A stretch of 64,000 nt of DNA, taken from Vibrio gallaecicus (lineage in GTDB: Bacteria > Pseudomonadota > Gammaproteobacteria > Enterobacterales > Vibrionaceae). Shown piece after piece: positions 23,732 through 26,001 of the stretch. A program made the translations under genes and the position numbers. Position 1 is the first letter of the stretch. Each line of letters opens with the position of its first letter. Under the pieces are notes generated by a model that was not told where the DNA came from, did not search any database, and saw nothing but the letters and a program-made list of their open reading frames with translations. The stretch covers positions 2,418,001-2,482,000 of the forward strand of contig NZ_AP025490.1 of assembly GCF_024347495.1 (NCBI RefSeq), read 5' to 3'.

Positions 23732-24139
23732 TTATAGATCACCTTTAGCCATACCATTAATCACAATATTATTGTAACTAACCATTCCAATGATCTTACC
23801 TTCAGAAATAACTGGCGCCCGGCTAATACCGAAACGTTCAAATAACCGAGCACAATATTTTACATTCATATCAGCTGAAACAGCCAAAGCTGGCTTAGTC
23901 ATAATTTCATAAATATTAGTGCGCTTTGATGAACGGTTCTTCGCCAGTACTTTCTTAGCAATGTCATTCATCAGCACAATACCGTATTCATCATCGTCAT
24001 GACGCTTATCAACAATCAAAGCCTTAACCTTATGATTTCTGGCTAACTCTATTCCTTCATGAACACTTGTTAAGCCATCCACAAGAACATATGTGTTTGC
24101 CATTACGTCTCTCACGCGCACTTTTTCATGAGTTGTCAT
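23732..24139 (-). CDS. Tandem CBS-domain protein
   Basis: A 135-residue stand-alone Bateman module. CBS1 covers about residues 8-65 (RDVMANTYVLVDGLTSVHEG, KVKALIVDKR, YGIVLMNDIAKKVL) and CBS2 about 75-132 (YEIMTKPALAVSADMNVK, GISRAPVISEGKIIGMVSYNNIV). Such pairs commonly bind AMP, ATP or related nucleotides. The start overlaps the stop of the PII-like gene by 4 bp (ATGA), so it is translationally coupled and is the last gene of the DUF1538 operon. A regulatory role on the transporter is inference from context. Confidence 0.88.
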   Translation of the reverse strand: MTTHEKVRVRDVMANTYVLVDGLTSVHEGIELARNHKVKALIVDKRHDDDEYGIVLMNDIAKKVLAKNRSSKRTNIYEIMTKPALAVSADMNVKYCARLFERFGISRAPVISEGKIIGMVSYNNIVINGMAKGDL

Positions 24140-24486
24140 AGCTCCCCCTCAACAACTTTCGTTAACGTTTCTACTTGGTGTGCCACACCAACAGCATCTT
24201 CAATATCAATCTGCACGGCAATACCCTGACCTGACTCTTTATCAAATTCACCAACCTCTCCAATTCTTTCTAAAATATGCCGAGATAGGTGCTCTTCCAC
24301 CACAAACAGCAACACATCTTTTTGTACCTCTAGTGTCAGCCCAAAGAAGGTGCGTTTTTGGTTTAAGCCTTGCCCTCTCGCATGGTTAATGACCGTTGCA
24401 CCAGTCGCTCCGGCGCTCCGTGCTGCATCAAGTACCATGTCTGTTTTACTGTCTTCTACAAATGCCAAGATAAGTTTAAAGCGCAT
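24136..24486 (-). CDS. PII-like signalling protein
   Basis: A 116-residue protein with the beta-alpha-beta ferredoxin-like pattern of PII proteins: FKLILAFVEDSKTDMVLDAARSAGATGATVINHARGQG at the N-terminus, then FFGLTLEVQKDVLLFVVEEHL, and a C-terminal GQGIAVQIDIEDAVGV where classical GlnB has its GKIFV region. The T-loop is shortened and the uridylylated Tyr51 context is absent, so it is not GlnB or GlnK. It overlaps the second DUF1538 gene by 11 bp and the CBS gene by 4 bp. Known PII-like proteins beside transporters (for example SbtB) gate them on binding nucleotides; that is the inferred role. Confidence 0.85.
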   Translation of the reverse strand: MRFKLILAFVEDSKTDMVLDAARSAGATGATVINHARGQGLNQKRTFFGLTLEVQKDVLLFVVEEHLSRHILERIGEVGEFDKESGQGIAVQIDIEDAVGVAHQVETLTKVVEGEL

Positions 24487-25270
24487 CTCTTTTCTCCTTA
24501 GCGGCTCGAGAGTTGTTTAACCATTGAGTTATCTGTGCGTAACTCATAACGGAAATAATGGGGAATAAACTGGCAAAGGCAATCAAACCAAAACCATCAA
24601 TAACAGGATTTCGTCCAGGAACCGTAGAGGCAAGCCCGAGCCCTAAAGCCGTGACAAGAGGAACCGTGACTGTTGATGTTGTGACACCACCTGAATCATA
24701 AGCCAGTGGGACAATCAGTTTAGGGGCATAAAATGTTTGTATCACCACAACTACATAGCCAGTAATGATGTAGTAATGAATAGGATCACCTGCGACAATT
24801 CGATAACTCCCCAAAGAAATACCAAAAGCCACTCCAAGTGCAACAGCAATTCTCAAGCCATTAACGCTAATACTGCCACCAGAAACTTGGTTGGCTTTTA
24901 TTGCTACAGCAATTAATGAGGGCTCTGCAATGGTGGTACTAAATCCAATAAAAAAAGCGAATAGATATACCCAGTAGTAATCAAACCAAGTAAGGACTAA
25001 CCCAGAACTTATTTTAAATTCAGTCAGAAATTCAGGCTCTGTCAACTGCATAGCCATTGTCTCCCCCAGCGGAAACAGTGCTAATTCTAGCCCGAGTAAA
25101 AATAGCGAAAGTCCAAGAATCACGTAAAAGAAACCCAGTAAAACCGTGCCTAGGTTCTTAACTGGCTTCCTCAATACAGCAAATTGAAAACCAAAGATAA
25201 TTGCCGCGATAGGAATTACATCGCTTACAGTGCTAATAAAAGTTGCGATGAACTGATGAAGACTGATCAT
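24476..25270 (-). CDS. DUF1538 membrane protein, second subunit (UmpB-like)
   Basis: A 264-residue inner-membrane protein with about seven hydrophobic segments. DUF1538 signatures are GLSLFLLGLELALFPLGE (about 53-70), FIGFSTTIAEPSLIAVA near 111 and YDSGGVTTSTVTVPLVTALGLG near 190-211, followed by GRNPVIDGFGLIAFASLFP. The same motifs recur in the upstream gene, so the two are paralogous subunits. In Halomonas a DUF1538 pair, UmpA/UmpB, was described as a two-component Na+(K+)/H+ antiporter. It starts inside the previous stop (4-bp overlap) and ends inside the PII-like gene. Confidence 0.85.
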   Translation of the reverse strand: MISLHQFIATFISTVSDVIPIAAIIFGFQFAVLRKPVKNLGTVLLGFFYVILGLSLFLLGLELALFPLGETMAMQLTEPEFLTEFKISSGLVLTWFDYYWVYLFAFFIGFSTTIAEPSLIAVAIKANQVSGGSISVNGLRIAVALGVAFGISLGSYRIVAGDPIHYYIITGYVVVVIQTFYAPKLIVPLAYDSGGVTTSTVTVPLVTALGLGLASTVPGRNPVIDGFGLIAFASLFPIISVMSYAQITQWLNNSRAAKEKRDAL

Positions 25271-26001
25271 GTCATCACCATTCCATAAATCATTACAAAC
25301 ATCATTGGCAGTAACGAAGCAAAAGCGATCAACCCAAAGCCGTCAACCATTGGGTTTCTACCTTTAATTGCAGAAGCTAGCCCTACTCCTAAAGCAGTGA
25401 CTAATGGAACAGTAATGGTAGAGGTAGTGACTCCCCCTGAGTCATAAGCAATCCCAATAATATTTTGTGGAGCAAATCCTGTCAGTATCACGACACCTAT
25501 ATAGCCACCTATGATCATGTAATGAATTGGCCACCCTTTTAGAATTCTTAAAACACCAAGTAAAATAGCTAAGCCAACTGAAACAGCGACAGTCAACCTA
25601 AGTCCGTCTGCATAATTTTCCATGTCATGCTCATTGTTTGGAATAACACCACCTTCAGCAGCCACCTCTGCTGCTTCTGCAGTAACAGCCGTTAAAGCGG
25701 GCTCTGCTATCGTGGTACCAAACCCCAAACAAAAAGCAAAAATTAGTAGCCAAAACACACTTCCTTTTCGAGCAAAGGATTGAGCCATAGATTCCCCTAT
25801 TGGAAACAGCCCCATTTCAAGCCCAAAAATAAAAAATGTAAGCCCAAGCACCACCAGCATTAATCCAAATAAAATAGACAATAAGTTTGGCAATGGCTCT
25901 TGAAGTACCACCAACTGAAAAAATGCAATAACAACAACGATCGGTAGCAGATCCCTAAAACTACCTAACATGGCTTTTAGTAAAGCGAGCACTGCTGACA
26001 T
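25267..26001 (-). CDS. DUF1538 membrane protein, first subunit (UmpA-like)
   Basis: A 244-residue inner-membrane protein, first gene of the operon, with an AAGGAGA ribosome site. It repeats the DUF1538 motifs: FIFGLEMGLFPIGESMAQ (about 57-74), CLGFGTTIAEPALTAV near 90-105, YDSGGVTTSTITVPLVTALGVG near 182-203 and GRNPMVDGFGLIAFASLLP. An acidic loop (EAAEVAAEGG...NNEHDMENYADGL, about 107-136) separates the halves and is absent from its partner. It should act only together with the second subunit. Cation specificity is not visible from the sequence. Confidence 0.85.
   Translation of the reverse strand: MSAVLALLKAMLGSFRDLLPIVVVIAFFQLVVLQEPLPNLLSILFGLMLVVLGLTFFIFGLEMGLFPIGESMAQSFARKGSVFWLLIFAFCLGFGTTIAEPALTAVTAEAAEVAAEGGVIPNNEHDMENYADGLRLTVAVSVGLAILLGVLRILKGWPIHYMIIGGYIGVVILTGFAPQNIIGIAYDSGGVTTSTITVPLVTALGVGLASAIKGRNPMVDGFGLIAFASLLPMMFVMIYGMVMT

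Follow-up and report, generated by a model that had tools for sequence, protein, structure and literature searches.

We describe a four-gene operon of Vibrio gallaecicus, located in a 64,000-nucleotide stretch of contig NZ_AP025490.1 (positions 2,418,001 to 2,482,000; hereafter the window), that encodes two homologous DUF1538 membrane proteins resembling UmpA and UmpB, a PII-like protein and a protein with a pair of CBS domains. We judge it rather probable that the UmpAB pair is an antiparallel, inverted-repeat cation/H+ antiporter gated from the cytosol by the PII-like protein and by an adenylate-binding CBS pair. The operon, its conservation, the co-retention of its genes at the genome level and the opposite charge bias of the membrane subunits were computed in this analysis. 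The four genes form a gapless run on the minus strand that starts at 26001 and ends at 23732 (aa, amino acids; bp, base pairs; K+R, Lys plus Arg; ORF, open reading frame):

25267..26001, minus strand: UmpA-like DUF1538 membrane subunit, 244 aa (Pfam DUF1538, NCBIfam UmpA, K+R bias +7)
25267..25270, minus strand: UmpA/UmpB overlap of 4 bp (ORF coordinates)
24476..25270, minus strand: UmpB-like DUF1538 membrane subunit with a basic tail, 264 aa (Pfam DUF1538, NCBIfam UmpB, K+R bias -7)
24476..24486, minus strand: UmpB/PII overlap of 11 bp (ORF coordinates)
24136..24486, minus strand: PII-like protein, 116 aa (Pfam P-II, residue comparison with canonical PII)
24136..24139, minus strand: PII/CBS overlap of 4 bp (ORF coordinates), the commonest arrangement among relatives
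23732..24139, minus strand: two-CBS protein, 135 aa (Pfam CBS; closest solved relative CBS-CP12, 5nmu)

The Pfam matches had E-values of 4.3e-71 (UmpA-like) and 7.2e-68 (UmpB-like) for DUF1538, 4.6e-10 for P-II and 5.7e-16 for CBS. DUF1538 scored 239 and 228.5 bits in the two subunits (cut-off 22.6) and P-II (PF00543) scored 40.2 bits in the PII-like protein (cut-off 25). The two subunits are 51% identical in the family alignment, and theirs were the only DUF1538 genes found in the 5.13 Mb, two-contig genome. A first-pass annotation of this DNA had described a four-gene unit on one strand with overlaps of 4 to 11 bp, which the coordinates confirm as 4, 11 and 4 bp. Among relatives (loci L032-L248), the PII and CBS genes overlapped in 158 of 184 neighbour pairs, by exactly 4 bp in 135. 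No Rfam family reached its gathering threshold in 22900-26600. Promoter-like sites were no commoner than expected by chance (nine seen, 9.1 expected), so no promoter is claimed.

Of 369 gammaproteobacterial genomes, 125 carried DUF1538; the 14 control genomes had none. One locus was taken from each of the best 97 of the 125 positive genomes, with profile-based gene calls, and the order UmpA-UmpB-PII-CBS, with UmpAB separate or fused, was found in 93 of these 97 loci: 83 had the four genes in a row, eight had a one-frame fused UmpAB followed by PII-CBS, one had a gap of ~1.4 kb between UmpB and PII (L069), and one carried an additional UmpB (L090). Two of the incomplete loci stop at a contig end; the PII-CBS genes lie near the end of another contig of the same genome in one case (L126) and inside another contig, hence displaced, in the other (L109). 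The other two (L123 and L068) were without CBS. The named sample, 80 loci from GTDB genomes, held the full set in 77, and its three incomplete loci (L193, L229, and L243) end no more than 3 bases from the last gene found. The first-pass annotation had named a gene order confined to this strain as something that would refute its reading; the 93 of 97 and 77 of 80 loci, with the co-retention across genomes, clearly show the opposite. Chance gene order is ruled out by conservation across many families, and a strain-specific operon by the locus and genome surveys. As for a viral or phage origin, a search of viral contigs with one UmpB sequence, an approach that reaches close relatives only, gave no relative.

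In a survey of 200 Pseudomonadota genomes, 84 had DUF1538. A wider sample of 40 loci from 37 Pseudomonadota genomes, hand-picked for variety, included 15 loci with PII and CBS and eight with a long fused UmpAB (~600 aa) accompanied by one or two PII genes. A PII-CBS pair was kept apart from UmpAB in three genomes: G440 (L152/L271), G468 (L153/L272), and G032 (L109/L298). UmpA also matched nine records of a plasmid collection, of which seven were inspected (H5 and H7 were left out). The alphaproteobacterial plasmids of Methylocystis and Chelativorans had UmpA-UmpB-PII without CBS; in Chelativorans the leading DUF1538 gene is short (273 bp). Three clostridial plasmids (L291, L292, and L294) encoded a fused DUF1538 protein followed by a P-II gene of 222-224 aa, again without CBS; by Pfam, one of these long P-II proteins had two P-II stretches and the other two a single one. 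Two more clostridial records matching UmpA carry no gene annotation. PII is the more constant partner of UmpAB; other lineages do without CBS, and some of them carry a second PII in its place.

Some loci depart from this pattern by addition. In L147 two systems stand head to tail, a fused UmpAB-PII-CBS set and then a PII-UmpA-UmpB set without CBS, and in L205, L212, and L244 an additional CBS protein is encoded upstream of UmpA-UmpB-PII-CBS. The length of the UmpB tail was tried as a marker of CBS and is not claimed as one (medians 17.5 in 174 loci with CBS and 21 in 12 with PII only, p 0.09).

At the genome level, too, DUF1538 and this PII-like type occur together. PII-like presence was scored with profile A2 at an E-value of at most 1e-12. 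Both types were present in 122 of the 369 gammaproteobacterial genomes, with three genomes having DUF1538 only, three PII-like only and 241 neither (phi 0.96); the corresponding figures for the 200 Pseudomonadota genomes were 83, one, five, and 111 (phi 0.94). Presence and absence therefore agreed in 363 of 369 and 194 of 200 genomes, counts that take no account of kinship among genomes. In the three PII-only gammaproteobacterial genomes the gene lay at a contig end (two genomes) or was preceded by a mere UmpB fragment. Because A2 was built from DUF1538 neighbours, PII-like presence in DUF1538 genomes is partly by construction; the near-absence of this PII-like type from genomes without DUF1538 is not. 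Separately, PII-like matches that each contain a single in-frame stop were seen in G264, G388, G394, G401, G404, G430, G451, G455, G488, and G532.

Hydropathy, read by eye, gave seven spans in each subunit, as predicted for the Halomonas proteins (PMC5484666). Lys and Arg were then counted in eight end and loop segments per protein. The bias was positive on the N-terminal side (N-in) in 196 of 196 UmpA rows and lay on the opposite side (N-out) in 194 of 195 UmpB rows, with one tie; for the window pair the K+R table was 8:1 versus 3:10 (Fisher p 0.0075). The net charges of the segments were:

N-terminus: UmpA +0.97, UmpB -1.63
Loop 1-2: UmpA -0.52, UmpB +3.34
Loop 2-3: UmpA +0.05, UmpB -2.87
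Loop 3-4: UmpA -1.98, UmpB +1.56
Loop 4-5: UmpA +1.94, UmpB +0.70
Loop 5-6: UmpA -1.62, UmpB -0.03
Loop 6-7: UmpA +0.74, UmpB -0.25
C-terminus: UmpA +0.06, UmpB +1.69

The pair is probably antiparallel, with UmpA predicted to be N-in/C-out and UmpB N-out/C-in. Natural fusions retained the same bias. In 24 fused UmpA=UmpB frames, the first half was N-in and the second N-out in every case; in L068 the second half is truncated. The linkers measured 25-39 aa and had no hydrophobic stretch of membrane length, the highest mean hydropathy over 19 residues being 1.32. The clostridial fusions had the same opposite bias in five of five. With the UmpA map, the Methylocystis subunits gave +4 (first) and +1 (second), and the Chelativorans subunit -2. 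When segment boundaries were shifted at random by up to 5 residues in 300 trials, the medians were 100% for UmpA and 98.5% for UmpB. The opposite charge bias of UmpA and UmpB and its retention in natural fusions are new in this analysis; the first-pass annotation had overlooked the opposite topology and the fusions, as well as the greater constancy of PII.

The best NCBIfam matches were UmpA for the first subunit (386.3 bits, cut-off 490) and UmpB for the second (356.8 bits, cut-off 500); the window pair is not filed as an equivalog because both scores lie below these cut-offs. UmpAB of Halomonas zhaodongensis was reported to form a heterodimer and, expressed in E. coli by itself, to exchange Na+(Li+,K+) for H+; rescue under salt and alkaline conditions and assays of vesicles were reported for it, and it had been cloned on a fragment of 4.2 kb said to contain ORF1-ORF4 and nothing else (PMC5484666). 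Antiport by DUF1538 pairs rests on this one published study and is extended to the window pair by analogy. Of the earlier designation as a DUF1538 antiporter, the kinship with UmpA and UmpB stood (386 and 357 bits); since both subunits fall below the cut-offs of 490 and 500, we infer the antiport from the relative. Vibrio xiamenensis, a source of a UmpAB relative named in the Halomonas paper (PMC5484666), is represented here by locus L189, which holds all four genes. In another study, DUF1538 was among the pH-adaptation genes of a SHAP analysis (PMC13255231).

The PII-like proteins form a family distinct from canonical PII, although their profile A2 matches PII structures (P-II fold family). 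The T-loop is short, and the equivalents of K90, R101, and R103, the basic ATP-phosphate residues of canonical PII, are lost: of 96 sequences, 95 have I/V/M/L at the first position and all 96 have G at the second, while the third is mostly a small residue that is not basic (A in 27, S in 26). This loss rules out a canonical nitrogen PII and would predict that ATP is bound weakly or not at all in the canonical manner. In canonical PII, the T-loop Tyr is the site of uridylylation, and GlnK carries a uridylylated Tyr; the translated window protein has neither Tyr nor Cys, and lacks with the latter the CGPxGC motif of some SbtB proteins. Strongly conserved in the family are GATGxT, RGEG, KTFFGL, QRD, GxGIAFQ, DVED, and G100, and an ARGEG stretch is common to it and Thermus TTHA0516 (2cz4, deposited as hypothetical). 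For the CBS protein, the closest solved relative by sequence was CBS-CP12 (5nmu, E 9.6e-23, CBS part only), with which it has an RHxxDxYG stretch in common. The ligand-type Asp of CBS1 (D59 in the window) was kept in 86 of 94 sequences; position 124 in CBS2 is Asp in 80 of 94 and Asn (N124) in the window protein. A nucleotide-sensing role is credible in the CBS pair and no more than putative in the PII-like protein. The two nucleotide sensors of the first-pass annotation were thus half supported, because the PII-like protein is without the canonical ATP-phosphate residues.

Members of the PII-like family also occur away from DUF1538. In the 9.5 kb locus L252, in which no DUF1538 was found, the region 3868-6915 pairs a PII-like gene (4533-4880) with the gene of a CPA2-type Na_H_Exchanger/TrkA_N protein (4939-6915), the former being 58 bp upstream of the latter and on its strand; the same genome holds a full four-gene set at L048. 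This pairing fits a wider role of PII-like proteins with cation antiporters. Other paralogues, which do not fit such a role, adjoin a small SH3_3-domain protein (L267, L274, L279, L280, L281, and L283), possibly as a second PII-like module. In L254 (4403-6433), two consecutive PII-like genes follow a glutamate-receptor-like ion channel gene, and a BCCT betaine transporter is encoded on the opposite strand.

From these elements a mechanism can be proposed in which the operon would encode a regulated monovalent cation/proton antiporter. The homologous 7-span subunits UmpA (N-in) and UmpB (N-out) would insert upside-down to each other and, being so inserted, would form one inverted-repeat transporter, which other bacteria would make as a single fused chain. 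The conserved acidic residues E100 and D187 of UmpA and E116 and D192 of UmpB, one set per half, are likely candidates for the cation/proton sites. The cytosolic face would comprise the N-terminus and loops 2-3, 4-5, and 6-7 of UmpA, and loops 1-2, 3-4, and 5-6 and the basic tail of UmpB. The docking of the PII-like protein, the sign of regulation and the ligands we infer from analogy: the protein, a trimer if it is like known PII, would dock via a short conserved loop (consensus KTFFGLxLExQRD) and restrain transport while docked, after the example of GlnK with AmtB and of SbtB with SbtA. The CBS pair would bind an adenylate of the AMP/ADP/ATP type and bias either PII docking or the transporter itself. 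More generally, DUF1538 proteins may be a class of inverted-repeat cation/H+ antiporters, paired or fused, that seldom occur without a dedicated PII-like gate and to which many lineages add CBS or a second PII; we regard this generalization as evenly poised.

Several observations weigh against the proposed regulated antiporter. The window pair lies below the equivalog cut-offs, and its activity may differ from that of UmpAB. The UmpA cut-off was reached by none of the 369 genomes, which also marks the test as strict; the nearest genome (G309) scored 422.7 bits, and its locus L125 is a complete four-gene set. Sequence searches among solved structures gave no relative of DUF1538. In the wider sample of 40 loci, 11 had UmpA-UmpB-PII without CBS (among them L146, which stops shortly past PII) and six had no adjacent PII, one of these being cut by a contig end; two of the unaccompanied pairs (L152 and L153) come from G440 and G468, where PII-CBS is kept at another place. 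DUF1538 occurred without a PII-like match at the cut-off used in four genomes (G144, G235, G285, and G523). In the worst of the 300 boundary-shift trials the expected bias fell to 57% and 33%, and many rows are related, so that the counts are not independent. Halomonas UmpAB was active in E. coli with neither PII nor CBS supplied, which makes the sensors regulators at most, and the main text of that report mentions neither (PMC5484666). Even in the SbtA-SbtB system, one strain is reported to regulate SbtA without needing SbtB (PMC8352866).

One alternative, which we consider unlikely, is that UmpAB is an antiporter and that the PII-like and CBS proteins act elsewhere, on transcription, an enzyme or signalling partners, being co-transcribed for the same stress. 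The activity in E. coli without them agrees with this (PMC5484666), whereas the two PII-transporter pairs used for comparison, AmtB-GlnK and SbtA-SbtB, both dock (PMC8352866). The PII-like paralogues beside SH3_3-domain proteins, which are not transporters, favour it too, as does the displaced PII-CBS pair of L272, which adjoins a malic enzyme gene; but a P-II gene follows DUF1538 in Pseudomonadota loci and on three clostridial plasmids, and the PII-like type is rare without DUF1538 (3 of 244 and 5 of 116 genomes).

It is similarly improbable that DUF1538 pairs carry another substrate in vivo, such as bicarbonate, ammonium or some organic ion, with Na+/H+ antiport as a side activity and PII sensing carbon or nitrogen. 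The scores below the equivalog cut-offs leave room for this, but a PII-like paralogue adjoins a CPA2 exchanger (L252), and many of the named hosts belong to marine genera, both of which count against it. The known PII-transporter pairs do handle ammonium or bicarbonate (PMC8352866); against this stand the rescue by UmpAB under salt and alkaline conditions, its vesicle assays (PMC5484666) and the place of DUF1538 among pH-adaptation genes (PMC13255231).

Least probable by far is a plain parallel heterodimer, with UmpA and UmpB in the same orientation and their charge differences reflecting different partners: the words topology and antiparallel are not used in the UmpAB paper (PMC5484666), the antiparallel arrangement being a prediction, and the signal was lost in the worst boundary-shift trials and weak with the UmpA map (+1 in the second Methylocystis subunit, -2 in Chelativorans), but signs were opposite in 196 of 196 and 194 of 195 proteins, in 24 of 24 fusions and in five clostridial fusions, and linkers of 25-39 aa contain no span that would bring a 7-span chain back to its starting side.

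If the regulators are a fixed part of the antiporter, the activity published for UmpAB is that of a core without its regulation, and an ion exchanger of wide distribution would gain a testable link to the energy state of the cell. A PII-controlled Na+/H+ antiporter would tie cytosolic salt and pH balance to adenylate or second-messenger state. The series of pairs and fusions with opposite topology would be a clean case for the origin of inverted-repeat transporters, with a PII-like gene in nearly every form observed.

Two further features lie downstream of the CBS gene:

23120..23665, minus strand: YfcE-type phosphodiesterase gene, next after CBS (domain and family matches)
23047..23073, minus strand: two-sided terminator-like hairpin past the YfcE-type gene, of a kind no commoner than chance in the region

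The YfcE-type gene was a same-strand neighbour in 17 loci, 16 from Vibrio or Photobacterium and one more from the genus of the window, and none was seen inside the loci from Aliivibrio (L175), V. pectenicida (L182), and Enterovibrio (L196, L197, L201, and L202). It is a possible fifth operon gene in Vibrionaceae, outside the widespread unit, and could be co-transcribed. Beyond it, on the opposite strand (21596-23021), Pfam identified a Trans_reg_C-domain protein of 302 aa, which from its position we presume to be ToxR-like, and a ToxS-family protein. The ToxS match and the best homologues agree with a Vibrio origin of the DNA.

In the literature searched, outside which most subscription journals lie, the combination of an antiparallel DUF1538 antiporter, a PII-like gate and a CBS pair was not found, nor was a paper linking PII-like proteins with UmpAB. 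The one functional study of DUF1538 found there treats UmpAB as a free-standing antiporter (PMC5484666). Halomonas UmpAB (NF041627/NF041628) resembles the window operon in its two overlapping homologous DUF1538 genes, unequal subunits and hydrophilic UmpB tail, and differs in having been cloned and assayed without PII or CBS genes (PMC5484666). SbtA-SbtB is similar in that the gene of a bicarbonate transporter and that of a PII-like protein stand in one operon; SbtA consists of inverted repeats, on which the T-loop of SbtB docks (PMC8352866). SbtA is a single 10-span chain, whereas the window system has two subunits and a CBS gene, and its PII-like protein has no Cys for CGPxGC. In AmtB-GlnK, too, the T-loop of a PII protein enters the cytoplasmic exit of a membrane transporter (PMC8352866); that PII is canonical and has the ATP-phosphate residues, unlike the window protein. 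CBS-CP12 is comparable in its CBS part alone, and the window CBS gene, unlike it, sits in a transporter operon. A parallel in build is offered by DUF606 and the paired SMR proteins such as YdgF with its partner YdgE; unlike them, DUF1538 has 7-span subunits, putative ion antiport and attached sensor genes. Their oppositely oriented homologous subunits come as two genes or one fused gene, and DUF1538 is absent from the text of the review that treats them (PMC3962082). By analogy, then, the window system would work like SbtA-SbtB or AmtB-GlnK and be built like DUF606 or the paired SMR proteins, as a member of neither; by sequence it belongs with the DUF1538 pairs akin to UmpAB, without being filed as an equivalog.

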